64,000 bases of DNA, taken from the NCBI GenBank assembly GCA_964036195.1, contig OZ038459.1, positions 3,407,206 to 3,471,205 of the forward strand. The letters run 5' to 3'. The notes below the pieces were generated by a model. That model searched no databases and had not been told where the DNA came from. It saw only the letters and a list, made by a program, of their open reading frames with translations. Below, piece by piece: positions 163-62,330 of this stretch; the first letter of the stretch is position 1; every line of letters begins with the position of its first letter. The DNA is from Sphaerolaimus hirsutus. Its lineage: Eukaryota; Nematoda; Chromadorea; Monhysterida; Sphaerolaimidae. Position numbers and translations under genes: made by a program.

Positions 163-243
163 GTCCAAGGGTCCCTAGGGACCATGCACCATGCAAATAA
201 GTGCAGTGGCGCGCCTGCTCAACCCACGCAAGGGTGCGCTCAC

Positions 244-3200
244 CTTTGGCTTTGCACGTACCACAACGAGTTTTTTGGCGTCCTCGAAACGTTTGAGCAT
301 CAGCAACGTGTGCTGTTTGAAATTGGCCAAACGTTTCGTCGTTGCCGTTAACGTATCGTCCGACCGCTTTGATGACGTCTGGATTGTCGATGGTGAAAAA
401 TGTGAATTGGCGGGGATTAATATTCAATTTTATTGTTTATTTTATAATTATAAATTTTTAGACATAGATTTGCCATATTACACATTTTCCTGATGTGGGG
501 AGCTTTCTGTAAACTTATTAGAAACGTACTGTATTAGAAACGTAAAAACACAGCACAATTTATCATTTTACGGGGGGTGTTCAGTCGAGTCGAAACACAA
601 GTTAATGCGGTGAAAAATGTTACTCAAAAAATTTATGTACTAAATTAATGTAGTGATATTGGAGATTTCGCAACATCCGGACAAAATGGCATAGTTTCCG
701 TACCGCAAAATTGTTATGTTTACCGTACCGGTGCACGCTAAACCGGAACCGATAAAACGCAAACCTTATTCCTTCTAGCTTCCAACTGTTTAGCGCAGTA
801 AGCCTCGGTTCCGTCTATCAGCAAAACAATATCTAATCTGCCGACAGTTTGCTCAAAATCTATCGCCTGGTCCACGGTTCTTGGGTAGCCGTCGATAAAA
901 TAACCCCACGCCTTGCTATGTGAAGATTTGTGAATACCTTCGTGCACTAATTTTCGCACCAGTTTCTGCGGTGTTTTTGGGGGTTCATTTTGGAGTGGAA
1001 TGAAATTTCGAATGTTTTTTTTCAGCGTGTAAATTTTAATGGGTATTTGAATGGGGGCTTATTTGAGGGGGGTTATTATTTCTCCAGATGTTGTTGTGAA
1101 GGATCGTAGTAACGGATATGCTATTACATACACAGAAGTGGTAATCAATGGACCAAATATTGGCCCTAATTAATACATTATGTACATTGCATACATGATG
1201 TACTTCATTCCAGACGGGGGTATTTCAAGGGGGTTTACTTTTTCCTCAGCTCGCTCAGACCTGAGGTAGTTCGAGGGGGGGGGGTAATTCAAGTGGGAGT
1301 ATTTCGAGGAAGTACGGTAGCAGTAATAAGGAGCACAGCAAAATACAAACTTCACCGACCGACTGAACTAAATCGCCCGCGTCAATAGCCGTCTGCGCCA
1401 GTCTCCATTTGTCGCTCAACGTGCCATTTTTGGGCAATTTTTCTTTGTGTTTACGCAATTCGCGCCGCAACATCGCCCCGGCGGACACGTGCACGAAGCC
1501 GTCGTACTTTTTCACCAGCCGCTTGCAGTACTCCGACTTGGACATGCCGGGGGCGCCTGAGTGGAAGTTGGGCATCGTGTTGGACGATGATTATTGCTGA
1601 ATGACGAGTTTCAGTTAACTTCAGTTGTCACTTGACGAGGCAGTTGCAAATTTTGGCTGGAATTGATTACTCGTCCCTAGGGTGTCAAATTTCCGTTTTT
1701 CTTTTCCGTTTTCCGCAGGCAATTTTTTTCCATTTTCCGTTCCGTTTTCCGGCTGCTGAAATTTTTTTCTCCATTTTCCATTCCGTTTTCCAGCAACTTT
1801 TTTTCCGTTTCCGTTTTTCCGGCTCATTTTCCGTTTTCCGGCTAAACTTTCAGTTTTTCCGCTTTTTTCCATTTTCCGCCTCAATTTACAGTTTTTCCAC
1901 TTTTTTCCATTTTTTGCCTCAATTTTCCATTTTCCGCCTCATTTTACCTTTTTCTGGCTCATCTTTCTGTTTTCTGATCAGCCAAACTGGTAAAAAATTC
2001 ATGCAGATTGTCAATGATGTAAACAAATTTCTGTTTCCAGCAAAATTACTGCAAATTTTTTCCACTTCCAGCAAAATTTCAGCAAATTTTATCCGTTTTC
2101 CGGCAAATTTTCAGCAAGTTTTTACATTTCCGTGGAAATTTGATTTTTCCGTTTCCATTTTTCCAGCCTCTTTTTCCGTTTTCCGGCCGCTGAAATTTAT
2201 TTTCCATTTCCATTTTCCGCCAAGTGCAAATTTTTTTCCGTTTTCCGTTCCGTTTTCCGGCCGCTGAAAAAACTTATCCGTTTCCGTAAAAAAACCGTGT
2301 TTTTTTTGACACCCTACTCGTCCCTAATGGCAGTCCCGCATCCTGTATATTTCCATGTCAATTATGAAATGGTACACAAAGTGTCAATCAAAAAAAGAAA
2401 CGAATTATCTTTTTACTTAAATTTTGACATTTGGAACAACACTTGACAAAGTTTTGTGATATTTTGCATGACATTTGACACTTTACACTTTATAAGGCGC
2501 GGGATTGCCCCCTAGAGAGATGAGACACTTGCGGCGCCTATGGGGACGCATAGACCCTGTAAACCGAACTTAAGAAAACTGATAAATATTTGAACTATGT
2601 AGGTACTCTGCGCTCGCAGTTTTTATGTCTCAAGTTGGAAGCGTTCCAATGATAAATTAAGCTTATGATTTTAGTAAAAACGTGAAAGAATTTATTGTTG
2701 CGAGTATGTGAACCTATAACGTTGTAACAACAATGACTTTTTCATCATTTTTCCTCAGAAAATCACATGCTTTAATTATCATTGGCATGCTTCCAGCGTG
2801 AACCACGCGTGCAAGGTGTAAAGTCACTGGATTATACGACATACCAACGACTAAAACGACAGGTGCATTGTTCGGCAATCCATGCGGCACGTCCGTAGCG
2901 CTTCCCTTCTTTTTGTCCTTGTGCTCGTGTTTTTCTGCGTTAAATTAAAAACACTCAGATTTACAAAACACACTTTTTAGTACACAGTTAAGCAAAGTTT
3001 CACTAATTTTGTGACAAACCGGGCTCCCTGTGTAATGGCGGAATTGAAGCGGCGATAGATTGGTTGTCCAAGTTCGGTCCCAGGCCTAAAACCTGTAAAC
3101 AGATACAGTGTTACACTTTTCAAAATTGCTACCGTATATCCTTGAATAAAACACCCCTCTTGAATAACGCCCCCCTGGGTATTTGATATTTGTATCCACT

Positions 3201-6200
3201 ATGTGTATTTGAATGGCTTTGATGCCAATGAACACGAATTTTGGTTTGTTTTGGTTGTTGATGAACTGTAAAAAATACCTGGATGTTGTGGCGAAAAATA
3301 ACTCCGATTGAATAAATCCCCCTCCAAAAGTCCTCACGAAATAATAACTCCCCTGCGGTCTAGTTCGGGGATATACACCGTGAATAACCACCATCAAAAT
3401 ATTCTGAAAAAGAGACTTTTCAAAGTAAAGATATTACTTTTTTTTGTGACACATCCCTGTTTATTTCCCTGTTCGTGCTTGAACGGGATGAAACAGAGGC
3501 TTCAATGCCAGGAAGAACATCTTAAATACAGAAAATAGGTATACTCCACAGACAGCACAATATTTATGCATCCGCAGACACTTACGCGCTTACACTTGTG
3601 TCTTACCAATGTGATACTTATGCACGCACTTTCAAAAAAGAAAAATATTTTAAACAGAAAAAAACGCAGTCCAGTATAACCAACATGTTTCATGCCTAAA
3701 ATATGTATTTGAGGCGTCTAATTCTAAAAGTCGACAAGTCCACAAAATGCGATTTTGAGCAAATAGCATTTTAAGTTTCAGACCCAATTCCAGGCCCGTG
3801 ATGCGTGTCCAATTTGGCTCTCTCATGCTTTCCATTAAGTTCCATATGTTGACAATAAAGTGTCAAATTTTCAGCCCCTAATCTCAACGGATATGTGAAA
3901 AATGGGGTGTCCATAAAATTCCATTCGGTCAGAGCAAAACTGTTTTGGGGAGGGAAATGGACTTGTCGCCTTCTTGCACGCGAGAAAATTTTTGTTCCCG
4001 CCCGCGTTGGTCCTGCCTTATGGGAAATTGATGCACTTGTCGCCTTTTAGAAATCGGTTTCCACAGTGGACTTATCACATTTCTTGCGTTTTTTCCCATA
4101 AAAAAAGTATGCGGAGGATGGACTTGTCAACTTTTAGCCCAAAACTAAGTGGACTTGTCGACTTCTTGTCCATTTTTTTTGCATTTTTCCCCAAAAATGT
4201 CAAATTTGGCACTATGCCATATGGGAATGTGAGGTCAAAAAATTGGTGAAAAATGTGCGGAAGTAGCCCCAGATGACGTTTCCGGGCCTAACTCGAAATT
4301 TTCATATTTTGGACTTGTCGACTTTTAGAATTGGACGCCTCATTTTTATTTTTAGAACACCTTTTAACGATGACGCCATAATAGTGTTTCGTTCAGAAAA
4401 TGCATAGCGTACAGTCCGCTGGATCCACGTGAATGTAGCCTAAAACACCAATCGCAGCCCTTGGGATCGGGATCGGGGTTTCGGGATCGGGACTGCTAAA
4501 TCCCGTAAATTCACGCGATCCGGGATCGGGATCCCGTTTGAACCCTACCCCCAACAAACCTGATCAAGTAACAACTTAATCTGCTCGCCGACAATCGCAT
4601 TATTCTGCTCGCCAGCGATCAAATGCAGCAACATTTGATCGTCGAAATATTTCGCCGCCGGCAGCGTTTTCTGTTTGTATTCAGACAGCCGTTGAGTTAT
4701 CACTGAATCCGTTAAATCTCGCTGGCGCATATGCGATTTTAGCGTCGCTTCGTCGTAATCGAGGATTAAGGCTAGATTTATAGGCTTCACCTGTGGGGGG
4801 GGGGTAATTGAGGGGGGAGTTAATTGAGGGGGGAGTTAATTGAGGGGGAGTTAATTGAGGGGGGTTGGGTGATTGGTGTGTGCTTACTTTTTGGTTGATG
4901 TTGATTTTCGGTGTGATTTGTATCAACGTTTCTGATGTCAATATAATTGGGGTGGAATATGCCATATCATATATAGAATTCCACACATTTTTACAGTCGA
5001 AAAAAAATAAAATAAATCTAAATAATAACGTACTTCTCGCTCAAAATCCTTGACTTGTTGCAAATCTCTGGGAAAGCCTTCTAGCAAAAAAGCCCTAGCG
5101 GTGCCAACGTGTTTTTTCATCTCGGCTTTGACCACGGCCAATGCCAAATTGTTCGGTATGAGTTCACCTGCGCTTATATTTACGTGTATACTCGGCGGAA
5201 TTAAGACTCTGCACTCGCCCTTAGTTATGTCTCACGTTGGAGGCGTGCCAATTATAATTGAAGCATGCGATTATTGTAAACATGAATATGAAGAAAAAAT
5301 TCATTGTTGTGAATACGTTATCACGTTATAACAGTAAATTTTTTAAAACTTTTTATGAAAATCGCTTGCGTCAAATATCGTTGGCACGCTTCCAGCGTGA
5401 AATACAAGGTGTAAAGTCACTGGAGTATATTGAAGCTTAGGGTTACAATTAGCAACATAACATTAAAAATTACATATGCGCGACAGGATTTTATAATTTT
5501 GACCCACACGGGTTTTCAGATAGATGTTCTGGAGGTTTGGTGGGGGTTTGTCGGGTTTCGTCGGGCTTTTTAGAGTTGTAGAAGACAAAAACTGAGAACA
5601 ATTTTTGAAAATGGCTAAAAAACTACTCAACCAAAAAAACTCTGACCATCATCAATACACCCCACACCCCAAAAAACCCCCCTTACCAGCTTCATACATC
5701 TCGGCGGCCTTTTTCCACTGGGGGTACCTGTCCTTGTATCTAGCGATGGCCCCCTTCACCAAGTCCGGCGCGCACACGTGCACCAAATTCTGTGCCGTGT
5801 AGTCGGCGGCCACGCGCGCCGCGTGTTTCGTCTTGCCCACGCCCGGCCCGCCTGAGTACAACAGGTGGTGGACGGTACGGTTTGATGGGGAACGGTACCG
5901 GTAAATGTGTCATTTTGCGGAAGACGGTGTGGTGGACGGTACGTTTTGCGGTAAATGGTATGGTAGATGTTCCATGTTGCGGTAAACGATACGGTTAATC
6001 TTCAATTTTTCAATAAATGTTATGGTAAAAACAGTAGATTTTAGAAAATTGCGCCGCACGGTACGGTAAAGTTTGAAATTTCGCGGTACGGTACAGTACA
6101 GCAAATTCTGGCATGACAGCTGAGTGTAAATACGGTTGGATTGCGCGCTATAAATTCAGAGTGTTACCGTCTTTAACGACGTGACTTTTAGACGACGTCA

Positions 6201-8444
6201 CGGGCACTAGATTGAACGAAAATGATAAAACGTCAATTGAGACACTCAATTTGGAACAGTGCCAAAAACGAATTAGCATTTGCAATTCACAAAGGCCCGA
6301 AACCTACCCATGAAGAGAACAACTGGCACGTCATTTTTGATGTCAACTTGTCCCTCCGAACTAGTCACAACCGAGGCGGGGCGTTCTTCAGTTGACGCTG
6401 CGACTTCTCCATTTGCGGCGCTAGTTTCCGGCGGCGCCGTTTCTGCAACTGTTTATTGACTCGTTTGTCACTTTTGTAAATTGAAAACGCAGAAAGCTGC
6501 CCTTGCGATTCAGGGTCGAAAATGAAAAAATTGTAATCTATTGGCTCGCTGCCAATTATTTCGCAATGAAGTAATCAAGAAACGTCAATCAAACCGCAAC
6601 TCGACAAAAAAAATTACTGGCGGCGTGTCCATTTGGCAGCGCGGCGACAGGATTTGGCTGCACCTCTGGCTGCACAACTGGCTGCGCCTCCTGTTGGCTC
6701 TCGTCCAAATCTGCGTCGCCCGGCGGCCGGCCATTTTGTTGCGGCGCCGCCAGCGGACTGTTTCTACTCGGGCCGGCGTCAACTGTGCGAGTTATTTTTG
6801 TGGTTTTTGTTTGTTTGTTTGTGTGTGTTTTTTTTGGGTTAAGTAAATTTGGTCGTGTTTTCTGCCATAGCTGTATATGGTGCACGATATACTGGAAGTT
6901 TGAGCTATGCGTTCGATCTACCAATGCGGAAATTACATGTCTATGGAATGGAAACTTATAAGAGACAAAGTTATTTACGTAGAAATGCTTGAAAACCAGA
7001 GATTCCGTTAAATTTGAACAAAAATGAGAATGTTTGATAATTCCAATGTACCGAAAATAACACTGTTTGAGTTCCGCTTCCGCATCGAAAAACGCAAAAC
7101 TCAAATTGTCAAACCTTCCGATCCTTATCCCACCCATCCCGTATGAAAAGGTGACTTGACTTGTTGATCATTTTAGCGATATCCCGCCGCACCTCTCTCG
7201 AGATGAAACGTTCCCATTTTACAAAATGCTTTAAAACCACAGCCTAGCTTACCTAATTTCCTTCATAGAAACTTCACGTACTGCGCGCAGCATATTTATT
7301 AAAATAATTAGCTGAAAATAGGTGCTTAGTTTAACTACGTATTTATATATTTCAAAAAAGCGATTTCGTAGGCGTAAATTGACCAGGAGGTGCAAAAATT
7401 AGCGATCTTGAATGAAAATCGGTGAAAAATCACTCCAAATTTGTGCCAGATAAAGGATCGAGCTATTTGTGGGGGTATATTTTAACCCCCCCCCCCACAA
7501 CCCCCTACTCAACCCCTCGCCCCAACCCCCTCACCCCACTAACCCCCATTCCCATTAGCCAACACGACTCTGGGCGGGGGCGAGGGCGTGTGATGCACGA
7601 ACGTGTCCCACTGGAGGCGGGCGCGCATGGCCGGGTCGGCGCGCAGTTCGGCCAGGGCAGCTTCCATGAAGCCCACCGGGTCGGCCGGTCGGTTGTGGAT
7701 TAGACCCGTCATTAGACCCTGGGGGTGGGGGGTTGGGCACCTTGAGAAAAACATATATCGAACCCCCGTACCCCCCGCAACCCCCCCCCCCTATTTTTTC
7801 CGGGTGTGTCCCTCCAGGGAGCACTCCCAGACCCTGTAAAGTGTCAAAATCTTATTTTATCGTATCCAAATATTATGTTTTTGTATCCAAATCTTATTTC
7901 AAAAAGTAAGGGTTGGATACGAAAGAATAAGATTTGACACACATGACATATTACAGGGTCTTTTAAATGACATTTGACACTTTACAGGGTCTTTTACATG
8001 ACATATTACAGGGTCTTTTAAATGACATTTGACACTTTACAGGGTCTCTTACATGACATTATACAGGGTCTTTGACACTTTACAGGGTCTGGGAGTGGCA
8101 CCAAAGGAGCGATTTGAAATCTATCCAATCCCGGGAGCGTCAAAAACTAGAATATCCTTGCGTTACGCACTGGTTGACATCGGGTGTCGGCCCCCCTGAT
8201 TTCTCGCGCGATGGTAGTCGCAAGCTTTTGAGTAACAATAACTTTTTTTCACTTTCTTTAACTGAATTTCTACTTAATTCGCCAATTTAGCATACATGCG
8301 AGCGCTGATAAGTTGCCAAAATGCATATACCCAAAAATTTGCAACGAAAAAATAGTCAACTGTTTATTAATCGCTTACCTCGAATATTTTCGGTATTTCA
8401 TTGACTTGCAGGTATCTTTTTGCCTCGTGCACCGCGTGGCCCAT
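244..8444 (-). CDS. AK5: Adenylate kinase isoenzyme 5-like, two AK domains, 3' end beyond window
   Basis: Exons in coding order: 8444-8379, 7718-7544, 6782-6618, 6442-6308, 5851-5687, 5167-5034, 4790-4560, 3092-3020, 2934-2845, 1556-1360, 965-765, 378-244. All have GT/AG ends and matching phases, giving 589 codons. The ATG at 8444 has good context (CAAAATGG). Residues 1-60 match the RIIa/DPY-30-like start of AK5 (AKRYL..NEIPKIFEGL, then WDTFV). A Pro/Gln/Ala-rich linker follows. AK domain 1 (about 174-357) has Walker A GGPGVGKTK at 181-189 and EGFPR at 265-269. A Lys-rich linker (383-391) follows. AK domain 2 (about 406 onward) has GAPGMSKSE at 412-420, AGAMLR, DGYPR at 502-506, and a lid segment KRSDDT before TTKRL. 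The family transfers phosphate between nucleoside mono-, di- and triphosphates. Exon 378-244 ends at AAG|GTGAGC, so a final exon of perhaps 25-30 residues lies off the left edge. Family assignment is firm. Whether both domains are active is uncertain, because several nucleotide-binding motifs are altered. Confidence 0.92.
1678..2316. mobile_element. Family K hAT-type MITE with 8-bp duplication
   Basis: Starts TAGGGTGTCAAATTTCCG and ends TTTTTTTTGACACCCTA. CTCGTCCC is directly repeated at 1670-1677 and 2317-2324. The interior is many TTTTCCGTTTTCCG units. It lies in the adenylate kinase intron 1557-2844. The 8-bp duplication and TAGGG terminus fit the hAT superfamily; no transposase is present. 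Confidence 0.8.
2325..2513. mobile_element. Family A copy (short subtype) in adenylate kinase intron
   Basis: Starts GGCAGTCCCGCATCCTG and ends AAGGCGCGGGATTGCCCCC. The interior has the AATCAAAAAAAGAAA core of the short A subtype. It directly abuts the K element target duplication. Confidence 0.6.
2618..2838. mobile_element. Family H element in adenylate kinase intron
   Basis: TTTTTATGTCTCAAGTTGGA, AGCGTTCCAATGATAA to GCTTCCAGCGTGAACC, GTGCAAGGTGTAAAGTCACT. Seven related copies are in the window. Confidence 0.65.
3130..3382. mobile_element. Family B palindromic element (ATATCCTTGAATAA variant)
   Basis: ACCGTATATCCTTGAATAAA on the left and an inverted GGGGATATACACCGTG on the right, with CCTC/CCCC modules inside. 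In an adenylate kinase intron. Confidence 0.65.
3711..4345. mobile_element. Family I element in adenylate kinase intron
   Basis: TGAGGCGTCTAATTCTAAAA to TTTTAGAATTGGACGCCTCA, exact inverse apart from one base. Interior has repeated GGACTTGTCGACTTTTAG. It is the intact sister of the copy split by J. Confidence 0.8.
4447..4550. repeat. Family M, GGGATCGGGATC block
   Basis: GGGATCGGGATCGGGGTTTC units ending CCCGTTTGAACCCTA. Lies immediately next to the exon end at 4560. Confidence 0.6.
5223..5432. mobile_element. Family H element in adenylate kinase intron
   Basis: TTATGTCTCACGTTGGAGGC to GTGCAAGGT-type end (here ACAAGGTGTAAAGTCACTGG). Confidence 0.65.
5866..6112. repeat. Family S, ACGGTACGGT-rich block in adenylate kinase intron
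   Basis: Many GGTGGACGGTACGGTTT / GCGGTAAACGGTACGG variants. A shorter relative lies at 665-745 in another intron of the same gene. Confidence 0.6.
7819..8102. mobile_element. Family A copy in first adenylate kinase intron
   Basis: Ends are GCACTCCCAGACCCTGTAAA and TTTACAGGGTCTGGGAGTGG. The centre has inverted TATCCAAATCTTATTT motifs. It is inside the intron (7719-8378) but does not reach its splice sites. Confidence 0.75.
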
Positions 8445-19200: not shown

Positions 19201-22200
19201 GTCCTAACGCAACTCACTCATTGTATTTTACATGTGCTTCATTAACCACAAAATGTATAATTGTGTCGTTTACATTCTCTTTATACTCAATTCGAGTGGG
19301 ACTGTTTCTAAGAGGTATTATTTCCACAGCTCGCTCAGACCTAAGGTATTTCGAGGGGGGGGTTAATTCGAGAAAATACGGTATTCTTAACCCAATGTAC
19401 ACTATTTTCCAAACAGCCCAGTCACATTTCACCACCAGCACCTCAAACATTTCATATTTGGCACTTCCACACTTCTATTAGCCCTACCAATTGGTCTCTC
19501 GACTTGCAACTGTTAACATCATTACTAATCCTTACGCAACTCTGAAACATCGTACGTTTGCCATATGTCGAACGCACAGTAGTGTCAACTGGCGGAGTGT
19601 TATCATCGGCGCGACATATTTTGTCGCGCGGCTGCGTTTGAATGTTGTTAATTAGTCTGGGATCGCTGAATTCGGTCGCTTTGATGTCGTTGTTCATCAG
19701 CGGCACCGTGGTGCAGTTGTAGTTGCCGATGACGATGTCGTTCTGCGGGGTAGTCACAGACTCTGTGAAATGCCCTGGCAAATGGCTAATGTAGTGCAAA
19801 GTGTCTGAAGTCATGGAAAATGTCAAATGTCATGTAAAGTGTCTAAAGTAGGGTGTCAACTTTCCGTTTTCCGCTTTCCGCTTTCCGGAGGATGTTTTTA
19901 CCCTTTCCGTTTTCCGTTTTCCCGCAGCTAAAATTTTTTACCCTTTCCGTTTCCGGCAGGTGAAAAATTTTAACTTTTCCGTTTTCCGTAAATTTTTTTG
20001 ACACAAATTTTTCCGTGTTTAAAGTCATGGTAATGTCAAATGTCGTTCAAAGTGTCAACGTATTTACGTTTGCCATTTTCCAGCACATTTTTCGCATGAA
20101 ATTTGACATTTTACAGGACATTTTACAGTGTCTGGGAGTGGCACCTGGCTGGACATTTTCGGACCGGGCGTTGTCTTGCAGCAGAATCGGTCTCGGAACA
20201 TGTCGCTGCGCGTTTTTGGGGAAGTTTTAGTTTTTTATTTGTAGGTACACCTTAGTTTTGTTCAATGGCTCGATTCCGCCAGATTAAAAAGTGTATCAAA
20301 ATGCCAATTTGGATACCGATCCGGAAAACAAGTCTGGTTTGAACCCTAATTAGGTGTGGTATCCCAAAATTCTATACCAGAGGTGTTTCAAGGGTGGATG
20401 TTCGAAACAGATTTATCAATTTTGAAAATTTCAATTGTCAACTGGTGTGCTTAATCGGGCACACTACGGAATATTCCAAAAAAGTTATCCAAAACCCTCC
20501 TTTATCTCACCAGAAAATCGAATAAAAATCTGTGCTGAAGATCATATAAATGACGAAATTGACGGAGGAATTGAGTATGACGAGAAAATTGCTGGCGTCG
20601 GTGAGGAAGTTGAGCACGAGCGGGTCGGGGCTGCCGAACGTCTCCACGATGTTGATCACCAGCGCCAACGTGTTGCACAGCAGAAACAGCAGCACCACCT
20701 GGGAGGGGCGAGTTAGATTACAAGTGGGATCCCGATCCCGAATCCCGATATTTGCCCGGTTTAGTGGTCCCGATCCCGAAGCCCCAAACCAAACCCGATC
20801 CCGATCGTGAAATCTGAAAATCACAATTCCGATCCCGAAAGGTCAATCCCGTTTGAACCCTAATGTTCGTGTATTGGCGTGTTAGCCTGTAAATGTTAAA
20901 ATGTCGTTAATTGTCATGCAAGTGGCAAAAGTTGTGATTCCATGAAATAACCAGTCAGAATGAAACTTTGACATGACACTTTGTGAAACGTTAATTGTCA
21001 CGCAATGTCTCCGACTAGCACCGAGTAAAGTTGAACGCGAGTAATTATCTCGCAATCACCCCCATCAACCCACCCAAAAATCCGTCAACCGTCTTTCAAC
21101 TAATTCCGTCAACTTTCCGTCAACTGCTTCCGTCAACTGTCAACTGACCATGATCATAGTGACGGTGTCGTCGCTGTCGGCCTCGCCGGCGCCGGGGCGC
21201 ACCTTCATCATTTGCAGCGGCGCCGCGGCCGCAATGCCCGCTATGCCGTGGTAGCGCGGCTGCGAAATGCTCGAAGGGGGTGCATTGGGGATTTTTTTTT
21301 TTTTGGGGGGGGGGTGATGACTGAATTCTAAACGTAAAAGTATTTTCGTGTAATTTTGACACACTTTAATTTTGATGTGAGAAGTGAAATTAGAAGTGAG
21401 AAGTGAAATGAGAAGTGAAATAAGTGAGAATTAAAATGCGAAGAAAAACGATAAGTTTTAAGTTTATTTTGATTTAAATATTTTACTTCTTAGTTTTAAA
21501 ACGTTTTTTTACTATCTTCTTGCGGAATCTGCACCAGGTGCAATCCCACCCCTGTAAAGTGTTAAGTAAAGTGTCAAATGTCATGTAAAATGTGAATCAA
21601 AACAAAGAAAAACTTTTTTCCTGAACTTTGCGTGACATTTGACACTTTACTTTTCACTTTACAGAACCGTCCCCAAAGGCCAAAGCCAACTCTCCATGTA
21701 TAATAGCAAGCAACCGCCCCCCCCCAAACTCACGCTCACAGTATCAATCCCATAACTGCTATTTTCCCTCCTAGTCCGGTCCCTCACGCTCTTCCTGCCA
21801 CCATTATCCCTGGGACACTGCATTTCGGTGTGCCGCCGCGGCAGGGCGTAGGGCGGCACGTTGCCCACCATGGTGTGCCGGTTCACGGTGACGCTGGTGG
21901 GCAGCGCCGCCCGCAGGAGGGGGCTGGGGCTTTGAGAGAGTCTGGGGGGTTGGGGGTTGGGGGTTGGGGTGGTAGTGGGGTTATGTTGGCGCTGCACAGA
22001 CTAGTTTAGTTTTATTGATAGGTGCCGGTTCCAGAGCCTGTTAAGGACCCTGTAAAGTGTGAAACACCCTATAAAATACAGGTGTTGTGTGTAAGACCAT
22101 GTAAAATGTAAAATGTCATGTAAAATACCCTGTAAAGTGTTTATCTAAATCTCATGTTTTTGTATCCAAATCTTACTTTTGGACATAAGAGACAGTGGCA

Positions 22201-28200: not shown

Positions 28201-31200
28201 CAGTAATATAGAGTTTGTATTTACAGTTTACAGGAAAACCGTTGTACATAAAAATATGTCTAGATTAGTAAATGCTTCTCTAAACTTTTCTAGTATTATA
28301 TTTAGTTGCCAATTGCTCTAAAAATTCCATCCAATAACGTTAAATACACTACCGTGCATAATAGTTGAGACTTTCTATGTTTGGGAATTTCGTAGTGTCC
28401 ATAATGGCCCTACACTCACTAGTTTTCACCGTGACTTGTGTGAAAACTGAAATGGCGACATGGCGACATTCAGCCTACTCTTATAGTATGCTATAAATAT
28501 GTGTTTTAGTTTTCAAATTTTCAAATTTAAGCCTTTATTTATTTAAATTCAAATAAGATCTGAATTAAATCATTCAACCGTGTTCATTTATTCACATTTT
28601 TAAAATTTTCAGTTTTCACACGAGGTCACGGTGAAAACTAGTGTGTGTAGGCACAATATTTCAGAATGGGAATGAACCAAACATTGGCAGACACTTTTGG
28701 TGCTTGGCACCAAAGTGTTGGGTCTCTTTACATGACTACTGATAAGTATAGTGATGTAAAAGGGCCAAGACTGTAAGGGGGGTTTATATGTGTAATGGGT
28801 CTAGATGTGTAATGGGTAGAATTAGATGGGTGGCGGGTCTATGTACATGTGTAATGGGTTTCCATGTGACTCGCCCTCAGTCCCTAAAACGTCATCCCTC
28901 AATATCCAAACATAGAAAGTCTCAACTATTCTGCACAGTAGTGTAAATCCACTACTACATGCACCCCGCACCCCCTGTTACCCCACATTTACCCCACCCC
29001 CTCAACGAACTTCAATCTCGCCTCGGCGGCGGCGGCGCGCCTCTGCATGCGCCTGGCGATGAGCGCGTTGAGCACGCTGAGCAGGAAGAAGGGCACGAAC
29101 GTCATGAGGATCATGTACATGTACACGTTGTACACCACGTTGATCTTGAAGAACAGCTCCGTGGGGCAGATCTCCACCATGGTCGCGTGCCGGTGCGGTC
29201 TGGGAAAACACGTTTTTTTCAACCACCACGTTTTCACCACGTTTTTGAAGAAAAAAAAAGTTTTGAGAAGTCCCGAAATATGGTTGTAGGTATTTTTATC
29301 GGTCTGCAATTGGGAGGGGGGTTGGTTTCTACCTAACTATCTATGCCGATGCATTTCTTGGCTCCTATCCTATTATACCCCCCAAAGCGCAAGTGAAGCC
29401 AATTTCGTATTATTCTGCCTCAATTTTCACTCGAATCACAAACCTGCACATTCTCAGTCTGAATTGTCCAAATCTGAGGGAATTATAACCGGCGGACACC
29501 AGAAAGACCACGGCTAAAAGTTGAACCGCTCTTTTTGGGGTGCAATAGTTTGGAAACGTTTCGGTCCAATAGACCTGTGTGTTATAGAGGATTATGACGT
29601 CATGTTAAGTGACACGTTTTGCTCAAAGTTTCAAATTCCAGGCAGGGTGTGAATTTGATACCTTCTCATTGGCGCGAAATACTGGATTGTAATTGACAAC
29701 TTACAAAAAAAATTAATAGGTATATGTAATATATGTAATATAAATTATTTATGTCTTGGTCGATAACGCCCGAGTCGGATACTTATGTATGCACTATCAC
29801 AAAAAGAAAAATATTTTAAAAAAGAAAAAATCGGGGTCGCATACAAATGAGGAATGTTTTTCCCGAAATGTTTTTTCTTTTTTGCTGGAATTATTTTAAT
29901 TTTATTAATGATGACATCATAATGGAGTGTTTCCTTCAGAAAAATGCATGGCATGCGGTCCGCCGAATATACTGTATTTTATTTGTTCAAAATGTTCTCC
30001 GCTTATCACGACTTCCCTTGATCTCCCACCCCCTAAAATATCACAAAAATTTCTCCAATTTCATGCAAAGTATAAATCGTCAGATGAAATCCCTTTAACA
30101 TTCAACGTGACATTTCACTGTCCCACCCAACCCCATCAAACAACCCCCCCCCGCAACACCTTGACATAGCAATCGATAGCCGCGGCGACAATAATGTACA
30201 CACTGCAAGTCTGCGCCAGGTACCCAAAAGGCAGCGTGTACACCACCAAGTAGGGGCTGTGGTGCAGCGCGGGCAGGTACGCCCTGGCCGAGTCGATCCA
30301 GAACATCACCACGCCCGTTATCACCTGGGGGCAGTCCCAGACACTGTAAAATGCACTGTGAAGTGCAGAAGACTCTGTGAAATGTCATGTAAATAACCGT
30401 GTAAGTGTCATGTGTATCCAAATAGTATTGTAGCATATCCAAATCGTACGTTTTTGTGTCCAAAGCTTTTGTAGAAAAGTAAGAATTGGATACAAAAACA
30501 TAAGATTTGTATACGATACAATAAGATTTGGATACACATGACACGTTACAGATTATTTTACATGACATTTGACACTTTACAGTATCTTTTACATGACACC
30601 TGACATTTTACATTTTACAAGGCATTTTACAGAGTCTGGGACTGGCACCAGGAAGAAGTCGCTGACTGATAGCGCCGCCAGGTAGATGTTCGCTGAACTG
30701 GAGCGCATTCTGAGCGGGGTTGGCTTGAGGTTGCGAGTAGTGATGGAAAAGTGCCAGGAAAAATGGCGCCAGTGCAAGGGGGTATTTCAAGGGTTGAGTA
30801 TTTCCCCAGATCGCTCAGACCTGGGGGGTATTTCGAGGGACGAGGGGGTTTCATTCCAGGGGACTGTAAATCCCACGGTTTCGCATCAAATCAACACAAT
30901 GCAGTATTTAAATACTTTAAAAATTACAAAGTTTCTGGATCTCGATAAGTGAATGCAAAATCATATAACTGCAACATCCAAATTCAAAAGAAACACGATT
31001 ACTGATGTAAAAGCGCCGTGGCGCTGGCTCCAAGGCAAAAAGTGTCATGGCGCTTGGCGCCATTTTGCTGTGATTTCGTCCGCTTGGTGCTATGTTTTAG
31101 TTGCGCTAAGAACAAAAGCGTCTGGCGCTGGGTCTTGGCGCTTGACGCCAAAATGTTGCCGCCTTTCACAGTTCTAAACGTGACACTTCAAAAGGAAAAA

Positions 31201-31405
31201 AAACAACTCACTTTGGTCTGGTGTAAATATACAGGTTGAAAACGTTGCCCACCAAGCCGAACAGAGACACCAGTGGCATAGCGAATATAACAACCAGAAA
31301 GTTGAACATAGCATATGACAGCGTGTATTCTTTGGATGTCAAATCAGAACAATTGCACTTCTCCCCTGCCGGCGGTTGCCACGATGAATCGTTTGTTTCC
31401 GGCAT
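16276..31405 (-). CDS. FMRFamide-receptor-like class A GPCR, complete, 11 exons, 545 aa
   Basis: Exons in coding order: 31405-31212, 30709-30649, 30324-30160, 29574-29444, 29199-28993, 21941-21734, 21259-21149, 20698-20511, 20205-20145, 19742-19536, 16380-16276. They sum to 1638 nt and all phases agree. The start is the first in-frame ATG; the stop is TGA at 16278-16276. The short extracellular N-terminus has N-glycosylation sites NDS (5) and NCS (18). TM1 is 36-61 (GN at 53-54), TM2 starts at 72 (SVSD, Asp82), TM3 ends in DCY at 136-138, TM4 is about 155-172 followed by YNSLRF, TM5 is about 204-230 (Pro220, then LNALI), TM6 is about 352-379 (LLCNTLAL) and TM7 is about 388-413 (NSSVNFVIY). 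Helix 8 is FRDRFCC, a likely palmitoylation site. The third intracellular loop is about 115 residues and the cytoplasmic tail about 115. YN.LRF, P..LL..LN and NSSVNFVIY are typical of invertebrate FMRFamide receptors. The ligand is not known. Exon order and phases are well supported; for exon 21941-21734 a nearby alternative acceptor is possible. Confidence 0.88.
16427..16594. mobile_element. Family D MITE in the GPCR intron 16381-19535
   Basis: CACACACGCTAGTTGACATA at the left and GATGTCAACTAGCGTGTGGG at the right; 168 bp, almost no loop. Its left end lies about 47 bp from the acceptor of the last GPCR exon. Confidence 0.8.
16607..17055. repeat. Family M, CCTGATCCCGAT block
   Basis: Degraded CCTGATCCTGA and CCGATCCCAAAA units, ending CATTTGAACTCTAAC. 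In GPCR intron. Confidence 0.5.
18268..18483. mobile_element. Family H element in GPCR intron
   Basis: TTTATGTCTCACGTTGGAAG to CGTGCAAGGTGTAAAGTCAC. Confidence 0.65.
18794..19384. mobile_element. Family B element interrupted by a D element
   Basis: TACCGTATTTCCTCGAAAAA on the left; GAGAAAATACGGTA on the right. A complete D element (18860-19022) is inserted near the left end. All of it lies in the GPCR intron 16381-19535. Confidence 0.65.
18860..19022. mobile_element. Family D MITE, nested in B
   Basis: GGCCCTACACACGCTAGTTG and GTCAACTAGCGTGTGTGGGC are near-perfect inverted ends around a GTTCGTCGGCTCG core. Confidence 0.85.
19743..20144 (-). mobile_element. Family A introner-like element forming GPCR intron 9, with nested K
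   Basis: The intron starts right after CCAG with GTGCCACTCCCAGACACTG, the family A terminus. It ends CATTTCACAGAGTCTGTGACTACCCCGCAG (split here as CATTTCACAGAGTC and TGTGACTACCCCGCAG), a degraded version of the opposite terminus. A family K element (19849-20016) sits inside it. The right-hand target copy is not preserved: the next exon begins AACGAC rather than GTG. This is therefore an older or altered case than intron 2. Confidence 0.6.
19849..20016. mobile_element. Family K MITE nested in GPCR intron 9
   Basis: Starts TAGGGTGTCAACTTTCCG, interior TTCCGTTTTCCG units. The right end is degraded. GTCTAAAG (19841-19848) and GTTTAAAG (20017-20024) match at 7 of 8 positions as a target duplication. 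Confidence 0.65.
20714..20863. repeat. Family M element in GPCR intron
   Basis: AAGTGGGATCCCGATCCCGA to AATCCCGTTTGAACCCTAAT, 16 bp from the acceptor of the TM6-TM7 exon. Confidence 0.6.
21374..21540. mobile_element. Family N MITE, degraded, in GPCR intron
   Basis: GAAGTGAAATTAGAAGTGAG repeats on the left and CTTGCGGAATCTGCACCAGG on the right. The right end joins a family A copy. Confidence 0.5.
21536..21680. mobile_element. Family A copy abutting a family N copy
   Basis: Begins AGGTGCAATCCCACCCCTG directly after a family N terminus and ends CTTTACAGAACCGTCCCC. It carries the AATCAAAACAAAGAAAA core of the short subtype and lies in the GPCR intron 21260-21733. Confidence 0.6.
22021..22345. 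mobile_element. Family A copy (long subtype) in the 7-kb GPCR intron
   Basis: Starts GGTGCCGGTTCCAGAGCCTG, carries the ATCCAAATCTTACTTT inverted core near 22150-22250, and ends in ACATGACACTTTACACACGG. The right end is degraded. Confidence 0.5.
22679..23004. mobile_element. Family C MITE with hexamer-palindrome interior
   Basis: AGGTGATGTAAAAACGCCAT to GTGGCGCTTTTACATCACTA. The interior has GGCGCC, GCGCCA and GCTTGGCGC units. In the 7-kb GPCR intron. Confidence 0.7.
23152..23668. mobile_element. Family L element
   Basis: GTTGTTAAAAGTACCGAACT to AGTTCAGTACTGTTAACAAC inverted ends; TACTCATGA-type interior. Confidence 0.65.
23963..25407. mobile_element. Family I element split by J
   Basis: TGAGGCGTCCAATTGTAAAA to TTTTAGAATTGGACGCCTCA. 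J (24062-24878) interrupts it at GGTGCGTG. In the 7-kb GPCR intron. Confidence 0.85.
24062..24878. mobile_element. Family J MITE with 8-bp duplication GGTGCGTG
   Basis: TAACGATGGCAAA and TTTTGCCATCGTTA ends. GGTGCGTG at 24054-24061 and 24879-24886; the empty site GATGCGTG is seen in the intact I copy near 3799. Interior is mostly ATTTTCGAATTTTCGAAT. The 8-bp duplication fits hAT. Confidence 0.85.
25492..25741. mobile_element. Family B element
   Basis: ACCGTATTTGCTCGAAATAA and TTAAATCGAGGAAATACGGT form the ends. In the 7-kb GPCR intron. Confidence 0.65.
25826..27571. mobile_element. Family B element split by a Tc1/mariner-like element
   Basis: Left end ACCGTATTTCCTCGAAATAC, right end ATTTCGAGGAAATACGGTA. 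Element O (26035-27372) sits between the two halves. Confidence 0.7.
26035..27372. mobile_element. Tc1/mariner-like element O with about 257-bp inverted arms
   Basis: TACACTACCGTGCATAATAG at the left and its inverse at the right, bounded by TA. Arms 26035-26292 and 27117-27372 are nearly perfect inverses. The 820-bp interior shows no frame I recognise as a transposase, so this looks like a non-autonomous derivative. Confidence 0.7.
28345..28945. mobile_element. O-type element with an F element inside
   Basis: TACACTACCGTGCATAATAG, then TTGAGACTTTCTATG, at the left; inverse CATAGAAAGTCTCAACTATT at the right. Shares its first 20 bp with element O. The middle contains a complete family F copy (28399-28655) and a C fragment. 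Confidence 0.6.
28399..28655. mobile_element. Family F MITE
   Basis: GGCCCTACACTCACTAGTTT to AAACTAGTGTGTGTAGGC; ATGGCGACATGGCGACATT in the left arm. Confidence 0.75.
30325..30648 (-). mobile_element. Family A introner-like MITE forming GPCR intron 2 exactly
   Basis: The 324-bp intron is wholly one foldback element. In coding orientation the upstream exon ends TTCCTG and the intron begins GTGCCAGTCCCAGACTCTG. The intron ends GTCTGGGACTGCCCCCAG and the next exon begins GTGATAAC. CCTGGTG at the left and CCAGGTG at the right fit a 7-bp target duplication (6 of 7 identical). The element proper is 317 bp and the intron is 324 bp. The interior carries inverted copies of the TATCCAAATCTTA-like motif seen in other A copies. 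Splicing removes the element plus one duplication and leaves TTC CTG GTG ATA in frame within TM2. Confidence 0.85.
30738..31110. mobile_element. Family C fragments around a B right end in GPCR intron 1
   Basis: AGTGATGGAAAAGTGCCAGG at 30738 and CTGATGTAAAAGCGCCGTGG at 30994 are C left ends; GGGGTATTTCGAGG near 30822 is B. Confidence 0.45.
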
Positions 31406-31529
31406 CTGGCTGGCGCCGATCTCTCACCCCGTCAACAGTCAAGTTTCGTGTCAAGTTTCAAATTTCCGACGCACTTTCAAGTTTCAAATCGCGATTAAAG
31501 TTTACTAGATTTCGTCTGCCCATACATGT

Positions 31530-31692
31530 CATAAAAACTTGTCAATTGTCATGCAAAGTGTTAAAATTTCAATAAAAATCCTTTTCTTTTTGTTTTGATG
31601 GACATTTTACATGACGTTTGGCACTTTACATTACATTTTACATGACGTTTGGCACTTTACATTACACTTTACAGGGCGCGGGACAGGCACCT
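31530..31692. mobile_element. Family A right-hand part upstream of the GPCR start
   Basis: TTACATGACGTTTGGCACTTTACA is present twice (as TTACATGACGTTTGG and CACTTTACA), followed by the terminus GGGCGCGGGACAGGCACCTGG. It lies about 130-290 bp upstream of the GPCR ATG, so it could be in the 5' UTR or a 5' intron. Confidence 0.5.
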
Positions 31693-31710: not shown

Positions 31711-32042
31711 TACCGTATTTCCTCGAAATATCCCCCTTGAATTAACCTTGAATTCACATGGATCATCAAACGCGGGGTATTTCAAGGGGGGTTCATTATT
31801 TCCCCAGGTAGCTCAAACCTGGGGGCAGTCCCAAGCCCTGTAAAGTGTCAAATGTCAAGTCAAATGCAAAGTCAAGTGTCAATCAAAACAAAAAGAAAAG
31901 ATTTTATTACTGAACTTTGCATGACAATTGACACTTTACTTTGCATTTGACTTTACATTTGACACTTTACTTTACAATTTACAGGGCTTGGGATTGGCAC
32001 CTGGGGGTATTCCGCGGGACGTCAATTCGAGGAAATACGGTA
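31711..32042. mobile_element. Family B element hosting a family A insertion
   Basis: TACCGTATTTCCTCGAAATA and TTCGAGGAAATACGGTAA ends. It lies 300-640 bp upstream of the GPCR ATG and is split by the A copy at 31826-31998. Confidence 0.75.
31817..32007. mobile_element. Family A copy nested in a B element, with ACCTGGGGG duplication
   Basis: The element (about 31826-31998) has ends CAGTCCCAAGCCCTGTAAA and TTTACAGGGCTTGGGATTGG and a central A/T-rich foldback. It is flanked by the 9-bp direct repeat ACCTGGGGG (31817-31825 and 31999-32007). The host is a B element whose sister copies read GACCTGGGGGGTATTTCGAG without interruption (for example near 30820), which gives an empty-site comparison. Confidence 0.8.
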
Positions 32043-36768: not shown

Positions 36769-37240
36769 TACCGTATTTCCTCGAAATACCCCCCCTCGAA
36801 ATACCCCCCCCCCCCCCTCGAAATACCCCCCCCCCTCGAAATACCCCCCTCAAAATGGACACTATGAACTTATAACGCCCCCTCGAAATACCCCCCCCCC
36901 CAAATTTAGTGTATAGAGAATGTAAATGACAAAGGCTGCGGTTTGTCATCTGGGTAATGCAAAACACACGTTAAGAACGATGACTCTGTTATGTGAGAAC
37001 AGTGATTATACGTCTACACACTTTTACAAGTCTTTAGAGTCTCATAAATGGCGATTTTTGTTGCATTTTCGACGTCTGCGTACGTTTCAGACGACAATTT
37101 AGTACTTGGTTTTCAAAAAATTTCTGGCGAAATAATAAACCCCCCACTCGAAATACCCCCCCCCCCCTTGTTTAACCCCCCCTCAAAATTCTCACTCTGA
37201 AAAAATAAACCCCCCGGGGGTATTTCGAGGAAATACGGTA
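36769..37240. mobile_element. Family B element, full length
   Basis: TACCGTATTTCCTCGAAATA and TATTTCGAGGAAATACGGTA are exact inverted ends. TCGAAATACCCCCCC modules flank a unique core with GTTTGTCATCTGGGTAATGC and AAATTTCTGGCGAAATAATA. Confidence 0.8.
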
Positions 37241-58727: not shown

Positions 58728-59262
58728 CACCCCAATGGGGACCCCCCTCCAAATGGCACCCCCCGGGGAAAGCCCCCAAAAGTGGCACCCCCCGGGGAAC
58801 CACCCAAAAATGGGACCCCCTAGGGCCCCACAAATATGGCACCCCCTGAGGACCACCAAAAAATTGCACCCCTTAGGGACCCCCCAAAAATGGCACCCAT
58901 TGGGACCCCCCAAAAATAGCACCCCCTGGGGACCCCCAAACATGGCACCCCCTAGGAACCCCCACAAAAATGGCACCCCCTGGGGACCCACCCAAAGTTG
59001 GCTCCCCCTGGGGACTCTCCAAAAATGGCACCCCCCTGGGGACCCCCCAAAATGGCACCCCCTATGGACCTCCCCCACAAAAAAAAATATAGCACCCCCC
59101 TGAGGACCACCAAAAAATTGCACCCCTGGGGACCACCCAAAAAAATGGCATACCATGTGGACCCCCTTGAAATGGCACCCCCATATGTACCTCCAGAAAA
59201 TGGAACCCCCTTGAGACCCCCCAAAAATGGCACCCCATGGGGACCCCCTCTAAATCCTGTAA
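58728..59262. repeat. Minisatellite 1, GGCACCCCCTGGGGACC units
   Basis: About 18 units of CCCCCAAAAATGGCACCCCC with TGGGGACC, 27-31 bp each. Unit lengths close to a multiple of three leave long open frames on both strands, which I do not regard as genes. Confidence 0.9.
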
Positions 59263-59697
59263 ACACAGCCCCTAGTTTGGAAACTCCTGTAAACTCAGCC
59301 CCTAATTTGGAAACTCCTATAAACTCAGCCCCTAACTTGCAAACTCTCGTAAACTCAGCCCCTAACTTGCAAACTCCCATAAACTCAGCCCCTTATTTGT
59401 AAGCTCCCATAAACTCAGCCTCTAATTTGAAAACTCCCATAAACTCAGCCCCCAATTTTGGAAACTCCTGTAAACTCAACCCATAATTTGGAAACTGCTG
59501 TAAACTCAGCCCTAATTTGGATACTCAAATAAACTCAGCCCCTAATTTAGAAACTCCCATAAACTCAGCCCCTAATTTGGAAACTCCCTTAAAATCAGCC
59601 CCTAATTTGGAAACTCCCATTAACTCAGCCCCTAATTTGGAAACTCCCATAAACTCAGTCCCTAATTTGGAAACTCCAGTAAACTCATTTTCAGGTT
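59263..59697. repeat. Minisatellite 2, 30-bp unit
   Basis: About 14 units of AAACTCCCATAAACTCAGCC with CCTAATTTGG. The same unit reappears at 62127-62330 beyond minisatellite 3. Confidence 0.9.
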
Positions 59698-62120
59698 GAT
59701 GGTAATGTAGTGTGAACATGGTATGAATATTTCAAAAAATCACTATCATCAATCCACAAATGCATCAATTCACAATTTTCAATTTTTTAGCCCCAGGGGT
59801 TAGACTTAAAAGGTTATGGTAATGTACAGTAGAAATGGAGTGCACATCTCAAATCACTGCAATAAAAAACCCACAAACGCATCATTTCACAAATTGAAAG
59901 TTTTTGTGCCCAGGGGTTCATTATCAGGGTTTTAGTAACGTGGTGTCAAGATGGAGTGCATATTTGAAATTGCTACAATCAGAAACCCACAAACACATCA
60001 TTTTATGATTTGAAAATTTTTGGTCCTGGGGGTTCATTTTCAGGGTTATGGTAATGTAGTGTCAAAATGAAGTGCATATTTCAAATCAAGGCAATCAAAA
60101 AGCCACAAATGCATCATTTCACAATTTCTTATTTATTAGCCCCATGGGTTCAATTTAAGGCTTACAGTAATGTAGAGTTGAAATTGAGTCATTTCAAATC
60201 AGTGCAATTAGAAACCTGCAAAATGCATCATTTCACAATTAGAAATTTTTGGGTCTAGGGGTTCAATTTCAGGGTTTTAGTAATGTAGTGTCAAAATGGA
60301 GTGCATATTTGAAATTGCTACAATCAGAAACCCACAAATGCATCATTTTATGATTTGAAAGTTTTTGGCTTAGGGGGTTCATTTTTATGGTTATGGTAAT
60401 GTAGTGTCAAAATGAAGTGCATATTTCAAATGAGTGCAATCAGAAACCTGAAAATGAATGATTTCACAAATTGAAAGTTTTTGGCTCCAGAGGTTCATTT
60501 TCAGGGTTATGGTTATGTAGTTTTCAGGGTTATGTAGTGTCAAAATGGATTGCATATTTCAAATCAGTGCAATTAGAAACCCACATCGAATCATTTCACA
60601 ATTTCTAATTTTTTAAGCCCTGGGCATATTTGAAATGGCTACACTCAGAAACCCACAAATCCATCATTTTATCGTTTGAAAGTTTTTGGCCCAGGGGGTT
60701 CATTTTTAGGGTTATGGTAATGTAGTGTCAAAATGAAGTGCATATTTCAAATGAGTGCAATCAGAAACATGAAAATGAATGATTTCACAAATTGAAAGTT
60801 TTTGGCTCCAGAGGTTCATTTTCAGGGTTATGGTTATGTAGTTTTCAGGGTTATGTAGTGTCAAAAAGGATTGCATATTTCAAATCAGTGCAATTAGAAA
60901 CCCACATCGAATCATTTCACAATTTCTAATTTTTTAAGCCCTGGGCATATTTGAAATTGCTACACTCAGAAACCCACAAATCCATCATTTTATGGTTTGA
61001 AAGTTTTTGGCCCAGGGGGTTCATTTTTAGGGTTATGGTAATGTAGTGTCAAAATGAAGTGCATATTTCAAATGAGTGCTATCAGAAACCCGAAAATGCA
61101 TCATTTCTCAAATTGAAAGTATTTGGCCCCATGGGTTCATTTTTAGGGTTATGGTAGTGTAGTGTCAAAATGGAGTGCATATATCAAATTGGTGCAATCA
61201 TAGACCCAAATTTGAAATCAGTGCAATCAGAAACCCAAAAATGAATGATTTCACAAATTGAAAGTTTTGGGCTCCAGAGGTTCATTTTCAGGGTTATGGT
61301 TATGTAGTTTGCAGGGTTATGTAGTGTCAAAACGGAGTGCATATTTCAAATCAGTGCAATTAGAAACCCACATTGAATCATTTCACAATTTCTGATTTTT
61401 TAAGCCCTGGGCATATTTGAAATCACTACACTCAGAAACCCACAAATCCATCATTTTATGATTTGAAAGTTTTTGACCCAGGGGGTTCATTTTAGGGTGA
61501 TGGTAATGTAGTGTCAAAATGAAGTGCATATTTCAAATCAGTGCAATCAGAAACCCGAAAATGCATCATTTCTCAAATTGAAAGGATTTAACCCCATGGG
61601 TCCATTTTGAGGGTTATGGTAATGTAGTGTCAAAATGGAGTGCATATATCAAATCAGTGCAATCAGAAACCCAAATTTGAAATCAGTGCAATCAGAAACC
61701 AAAAAATGCATCATTTCACAAATTGAAAGTTTTTGGCCCCAGTGGTTCATTTTCAGGGTTATGGTAATGTAGTGTCAAAATGAAGTGCATATTTCAAATG
61801 AGTGCAATCAGAAACCCGAAAATGCATCATTTCTCAAATTGAAAGTATTTGGCCCCATGGGTTCATTTTTCGGGTTATGATAATGTAGTGTCAATGGAGT
61901 GCATATATCAAATCAGTGCAATTAGAAACCCACAATGCATCATTTCACAATTTGAAAGTTTTGGCCCCATTTTGGGTTCAATTTCAGGGTTATCGTAATG
62001 TACTGTCAGAATGGAGTGCATATTTCTAATCATTGTAATCAGTAACCCACAAATGCATTATATCACAATTTATATTGTTTAGCCCCGGGGGCCTCACTTA
62101 AGGATTATGGTAATGTTATT
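59698..62120. repeat. Minisatellite 3, unit of about 116 bp
   Basis: About 20 diverged units containing GGTAATGTAGTGTCAAAATG, GTGCATATTTCAAATCAGTG and CACAAATGCATCATTTCACA. Higher-order duplication: a block near 60400-60650 recurs near 60720-60970 and 61190-61440. Confidence 0.9.
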
Positions 62121-62330
62121 GTTAACTCCCATAAACTCAGCCCCTAATTTGGCAAACACCCATCAACTCAACTCCCATAAACTCAGCCTCTAATTTGTAA
62201 ACTTGTGTCAACAGCCCCTTATCTTTAAACTTCTGTCAACTCAACCCTAATTTATTAACACCCATCAACTCAACCCTGAATTGTAAACTCAGCCCCTAAA
62301 AACTCAGGTCAACCCCCTATACATGTGCAA
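62121..62330. repeat. Degraded units of minisatellite 2
   Basis: AACTCCCATAAACTCAGCCC and CATCAACTCAACCCT variants flank the right of the 116-bp array. Confidence 0.8.

Follow-up and report, generated by a model that had tools for sequence, protein, structure and literature searches.

Many of the introners described by Gozashti et al. (2022) are non-autonomous TIR elements with target duplications of 3–9 bp, whose insertion into exons creates introns. Passages of that survey report that in some introners the element carries one splice site while the duplication supplies the second, and that among animals and land plants introners occur in two groups only, both of them animals and one of them the copepods (PMC9860276). 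A second described system is NuwaI, a Harbinger-like group of the PHIS superfamily. The account available in PMC4482050 gives it a 3-bp CWG duplication, a TIR usually starting with GGG and a distribution in animals only, and describes elements that bear a transposase and have a mean length of ~4.5 kb; their hosts are 12 bony fish, a beetle, a crustacean, a mollusc and an anthozoan.

We analysed a receptor (GPCR) gene in a stretch of 64,000 nucleotides (hereafter the window) from the nematode Sphaerolaimus hirsutus. It is very probable that intron 2 of this gene was gained when a non-autonomous NuwaI-like (Harbinger-related) TIR element entered a CWG site of an existing exon, and that its family is an introner. 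As far as the passages cited above allow comparison, the elements share with the introners of Gozashti et al. the TIR structure, the target duplication, a GT on the element and an AG from the duplication, but differ in the nematode host, the NuwaI-like family and some copies apparently ending in TG (PMC9860276). With NuwaI, as described in that account, they share the CWG duplication and GGG at the 3' TIR; however, one end reads GTGC here, and the family is assigned by its ends and duplication rather than by a transposase (PMC4482050). No report of nematode introners was found by title or abstract opening (introner literature from 2023; introner plus nematode) or in the accessible part of PMC9169325, and an earlier report is possible.

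The receptor gene model lies on the minus strand from 31405 to 19452 and has 10 exons encoding 514 aa, with nine predicted introns that are all GT-AG. The features are as follows.

31212..31405, minus strand: GPCR exon 1, with the start codon
30649..30709, minus strand: GPCR exon 2, start of TM2
30649..30651, minus strand: 5' target copy CTG at the end of exon 2, its middle base unlike that of the 3' copy CAG
30325..30648, minus strand: GPCR intron 2, phase 0, made up of the element (30648-30328) and the 3' target copy CAG (30327-30325)
30160..30324, minus strand: GPCR exon 3, remainder of TM2 and TM3
29444..29574, minus strand: GPCR exon 4, TM4
28993..29199, minus strand: GPCR exon 5, TM5
21788..21923, minus strand: GPCR exon 6, third cytoplasmic loop, placed by frame and splice sites alone
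21149..21259, minus strand: GPCR exon 7, start of TM6
20511..20698, minus strand: GPCR exon 8, TM6-TM7
20145..20205, minus strand: GPCR exon 9, start of the tail
19743..20144, minus strand: GPCR intron 9, phase 0, second whole-intron element copy, target copies CAG/CAG
19452..19742, minus strand: GPCR exon 10, tail and stop
31822..32000, minus strand: complete family copy upstream of the GPCR gene, target copies CAG/CAG, in no definable exon

In Pfam, a first 209-residue model of the receptor matched Srw above the cut-off and 7tm_1 below it. The full protein gave 38 matches when scoring was confined to the 7,996 candidates sharing most words, and every one of the 32 that carry names is from a nematode, the other six being unnamed. 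A diverged relative of the element (GTGCCTGTCCC...GGCGCCAG) occupies 31408-31690 on the minus strand, ending a few bases before the GPCR start codon, and could be a 5'UTR intron.

Intron 2 (30648-30325) starts with GTGCCAGTCCCAGACTCTG and ends with GTGTCTGGGACTGCCCCCAG (also given as CTGGGACTGCCCCCAG), and the element within it has the termini GTGCCAGTCCC...GGGACTGCCCC. The sequence-only reading had held that intron and element coincide to the base, and indeed the intron is exactly one element copy plus one copy of the target site. The 7-bp target duplication proposed there (CCTGGTG/CCAGGTG) shrinks to 3 bp, CWG. It had also drawn both splice dinucleotides from the duplication, which holds for the AG, found in the 3' target copy (CAG); the GT consists of the element's own first two bases and so does not come from target DNA in the 5' copy. 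As it had predicted, splicing would restore TTC CTG/GTG ATA, since the exons joined at 30649/30324 read ...SDFFL/VITGVVMFW... in frame, and the intron splits TM2, which begins in exon 2 and continues in exon 3. That the same termini recur at about a dozen other places in the window is right if ends are counted, but not if elements are: a scan allowing up to four substitutions gave 10 forward and 10 reverse termini, and 10 of the 20 had no more than two, one of these being intron 2. Absent from that reading was intron 9 (20144-19743; termini GTGCCACTCCC...GACTACCCCGCAG), a second whole-intron copy in the same gene, whose interior includes a stretch of another window repeat. Introns 2 and 9, as modelled, have GT...AG ends like U2-type GT-AG introns, whereas copies between two CTG triplets (CTG/CTG) lack such ends.

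Elsewhere in the window, the list of open reading frames shows, by eye, parts of an adenylate-kinase-like gene, among them several exons of kinase-like type (175-7790, minus strand). A decayed terminus at 1-163 (CCCAGTCTCAGACACTG) lies, by eye, within an intron of this gene, ~80 nt from the donor and off the splice site, and two-ended copies at 7820-8099 and 2329-2509, near or in the gene, match no definable intron. Further repeats occur at 59210-62212 and in C-rich stretches, 36772-37216 for example: these are long tandem arrays whose units are spaced by 30 and about 116 bases, together with (CCCCCCTCGAATAA)n-like repeats scattered over many places.

One relative of the receptor bears on the age of intron 2. 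This is P0004, a metagenome protein from JGI whose contig measures 977 bases. It is a single fragmentary sequence that is 80% identical over the aligned part and runs unbroken across the intron-2 site (LAVSDWFLVITG; also given as LAVSDWFLVITGLVMFW). An intron conserved at this position in distant relatives had been named as evidence against the insertion reading, and the one relative compared has none; on its own it may reflect intron loss there as well as gain here. In 14 aligned relatives the residue at the site is L, V, I or C and never Q, suggesting that CTG is probably the older state. The exon carries CTG and the 3' target copy CAG, so that a single T-to-A change would create the AG, and the AG of intron 2 probably arose in this way. 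P0004 also argues against an old intron whose content was later replaced by the element, by chance or gene conversion. Copies do lie within or at the edge of existing introns, as in the adenylate-kinase-like gene and at an intron boundary in a SMYD-like gene described below. Nevertheless, both GPCR introns and some other joined copies consist, to the base, of the element plus one target copy, and the flanks bear the 3-bp duplication, which makes replacement of an old intron extremely unlikely.

We then searched the 348 Mb assembly (762 contigs) with a 5' terminus pattern, GGTGCCANTCCCRN{3,5}CTGTAAA, using the reversed pattern as a control. There were 5,508 matches and none for the control, indicating that the termini are not due to chance. 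The triplet before the terminus was CAG at 2,572 places and CTG at 2,218, an excess of 354 (p=3e-7 for 1:1). The family terminus had no match in IMG/VR and GTDB contigs. The copies read form a local sample: they come from contig C1, where the first 50 CAG and 37 CTG places were taken in the order listed. Nearest-neighbour identity had a median of 87%, quartiles of 81 and 91 and a maximum of 97.6 for the 77 copies with a neighbour in a set of 78 (75 fetched and three from the window). Two of the copies, L066 and L067, have nearly identical joined flanks, indicating a duplicated segment carrying one and the same copy; they count twice among the 31 CAG/CAG copies below, and neither was called coding.

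The two ends were compared in the 60 copies for which each could be recognised, the right end being accepted within two substitutions of its pattern; this set predates the addition of the last 20 CTG places. Both ends share the inverted repeat CANTCCCAGACCCTGTAA and agree from position 5 inward. Positions 1-4 are GTGC at the 5' end, as fixed by the search pattern itself, and at the 3' end G occurs in 49-56 of the 60 at each position, the recognition pattern leaning the same way. Thus the last four bases alone differ, and the element carries its own GT; GGGG is presumably the older end. The target copies were equal over 3 bp in 44 of the 60, all of them CAG (31) or CTG (13), and the fourth base outward was equal in only 36, so the duplication is CWG.

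These features suggest how insertion may produce an intron. The 5' inverted repeat, reading GTGC where its mirror end has GGGG, would supply the 5' splice site; the 3' end of the element would provide a CCCC tract, and the duplicated CWG the 3' splice site. Upon insertion at CAG, a seamless GT-AG intron would result immediately, as may have happened for intron 9. Unlike GGGG, GTGC is unable to pair fully with the CCCC end, which may leave the splice sites open in folded RNA.

Exact-end splicing has a point against it, as GTGCCA is a weak 5' splice site and a GTAAAA 18 nt inside the element, present in 65 of the 78 copies, looks a better intron start. Splicing from the latter would keep the frame and add six codons, giving TM2 the residues VPVPDS. 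However, GTAA sits in the repeat common to both ends and would serve either orientation, whereas the copies called coding (see below) are in sense by 18:1, which points to the GT of the GTGC end. Moreover, TM2 carries no insertion in any of the 13 homologues aligned with P0004. Use of the inner donor is therefore unlikely.

To call copies coding, we applied a GC-corrected score to 75 copies, with the threshold set by the best-scoring 1% of places drawn at random from 33500-63500 of the window. Eighteen copies were called coding in sense and one in antisense (p=8e-5), with no call on either strand for the other 56. The sense calls comprised 7/31 CAG/CAG, 9/22 CTG/CTG and 2/6 CTG/CAG copies; none of the six CAG/CTG copies was, one being antisense, and the remaining 10 had no call. 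Orientation matters, and the middle base of the target hardly does. The score errs too, as it missed the EF-hand and LRR copies described below. An earlier version without GC correction had called 7 of 31 CAG/CAG and 1 of 13 CTG/CTG copies antisense; these included L034 and L037, which are sense by Pfam or gene context, and that version was dropped.

The flanks were also joined and the sense readings were compared with Pfam. Among 20 of the 31 CAG/CAG copies (the first ten picked by eye), five readings were above the curated cut-off (EF-hand, LRR, cadherin, Oscp1 and 7tm_2). The junction was clearly spanned by the Oscp1 match (residues 25-74 to profile positions 1-50) and the 7tm_2 match and only just by cadherin, but not by the LRR and above-cut-off EF-hand stretches. 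Of 20 copies with a 5' CTG, four were above the cut-off (2/16 CTG/CTG and 2/4 CTG/CAG), with the junction spanned in all: L111 and L112 (CHGN; 1 kb apart), L114 (7tm_2) and L118 (CBS), of which L111 and L114 have a 3' CAG. No family was above the cut-off for the other 31 of the 40 sense readings (15/20 CAG/CAG and 16/20 CTG-5') or for any of ten antisense readings of eight CTG/CTG copies. Judged by eye, L035 and L033 resemble coding sequence, yet neither has a Pfam family, and a PDB search with L093 and L033 gave no match. Three CTG/CTG cases are backed by homology. L118 matched AMPK gamma-1 (6c9j; E=1e-39) with the junction ungapped, L105 matched VIP receptor 2 (7wbj; E=4e-7) with an ungapped junction in TM7, and L112, joined to L111 by X, matched chondroitin sulfate synthase 2 (9q8z; E=2e-23). 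Among the 120 listed of 2,007 matches to AMPK gamma, Plectus sambesii had the highest identity (78%); two vertebrate entries were higher in bits but lower in identity (72 and 68%). Together with the receptor matches, this would place the host among nematodes beyond the well-sampled groups.

Judged from these readings, exact excision would restore OSCP1, AMPK-gamma and other conserved proteins, and the similarity of many introns appears to extend to both splice sites (GPCR introns 2 and 9, and several other genes). The sequence-only reading's central proposal, intron gain by transposon insertion, thus finds support in the TIR anatomy, the second copy in the gene and the thousands of genomic copies, and further in the conserved proteins restored at some other copies and the 18:1 sense bias.

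Insertion at CTG leaves GT...TG ends, and CTG copies should be missing from exons if only AG worked as an acceptor. In our sample, CTG copies were no rarer in coding sequence than CAG copies, pointing to TG acceptors: CTG/CTG copies were called coding in sense in 9/22 cases against 7/31 for CAG/CAG (p=0.23), and per place read the figures were 9/37 and 7/50 respectively, although CAG is commoner genome-wide. Scaling 9/37 to 2,218 gives, very roughly, about 540 GT-TG introns; the sample behind this figure is a single local one, and the score is imperfect. Introns with TG in place of AG at the 3' end may thus number in the hundreds in this genome, a tentative proposal that we rate at somewhat less than an even chance. 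In the CTG/CTG cases, as their sequences read, exact excision would restore the protein only as a GT...TG intron. One SMYD-like gene, recognised by eye and without a Pfam match, has a CAG/CAG copy within an exon. At a distance of 352 bases, a CTG copy (L037; C1, near 3191460) falls precisely on the boundary between an exon and an intron, and a MYND-like motif resumes past a separate acceptor. At such a boundary a CTG site is no puzzle.

Canonical splicing inside the CTG/CTG copies was considered using donors GT or GC plus a purine in the first 60 nt and AG acceptors in the last 70. An in-frame choice existed in 6 of 11 copies and in none of the other five (L112, L105, L107, L033 and L106), so this explanation was set aside as a general one. 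L112 and L107 gain a +17-codon choice if a weak donor, GTCATG at +32, is allowed; in L118, a 3' end one base shorter puts ACAG in frame (+6 codons); and for L105, which lies in TM7 of a secretin-type receptor, the scanned stretches offer no GT-AG pair that keeps the frame. Read-through translation was likewise rejected, as all nine CTG/CTG copies called coding have in-frame stops and only three of the nine have a length divisible by three, a count in which L118 was measured one base too long. Finally, exon copies might be removed from somatic DNA, in which case splice sites would be irrelevant; CTG/CTG copies without a terminal AG in exons of the AMPK-gamma gene, a chondroitin synthase-like gene and a secretin-type receptor are what such excision would allow. 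However, fitness would then be independent of orientation, against the observed 18:1 in sense, and we regard DNA excision as very unlikely.

If splicing does use the terminal TG, a nearby AG may assist. The repeat contains TTACAG, whose closing CAG stands at precisely 19 nt from the end in 25/31 CAG/CAG and 20/21 CTG/CTG copies, and this ACAG might act as the first-step AG, with ligation at the terminal CWG. Human TG acceptors, in the part of the work available (PMC2374985), need an AG within 28 nt, a feature shared here; there, TG is never the sole acceptor of an intron, whereas here it would have to be for the correct protein to be made. In Fritillaria borealis, according to the available text of PMC13326754, non-AG 3' ends are abundant, often in introns whose two splice sites share a triplet class (YAY), and a possible origin considered there is introner transposons whose splice sites are weak. 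The main non-canonical classes there are AG/AC and AG/AT, in contrast with GT/AG and, by inference, GT/TG here; U2AF genes are duplicated in that species (PMC13326754). Some elements may later acquire an AG when the T of their 3' target copy changes to A, as proposed for GPCR intron 2. Coding calls in mismatched duplications (2/6 CTG/CAG against 0/6 CAG/CTG, p=0.45) are no more than suggestive of selection for AG.

As to the source of transposase, which we infer to be of a Harbinger-related class, a DDE_Tnp_4 family has at least 163 matches in the genome, about 100 of them nearly equal in score, and looks recently spread. Most, as illustrated by L119 (C1:2186255-2186878), contain four in-frame TGA codons within the matching stretch, which may mark an intron. 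A NuwaI element would carry a DDE transposase and a Myb/SANT protein between one pair of TIRs; the single DDE_Tnp_4 copy read, across 3.5 kb, showed no ends of the element family, which are of the GGGGCANTCCC type.

How introns are gained has long been a puzzle, and few animals have been reported to carry introners; here, a large introner family very probably exists in a nematode. Its adaptation can be read directly, as one transposon end, a few bases off its mirror end, appears to have become a splice donor. The thousands of copies at CAG and CTG sites would constitute a natural experiment on which acceptors the spliceosome accepts.
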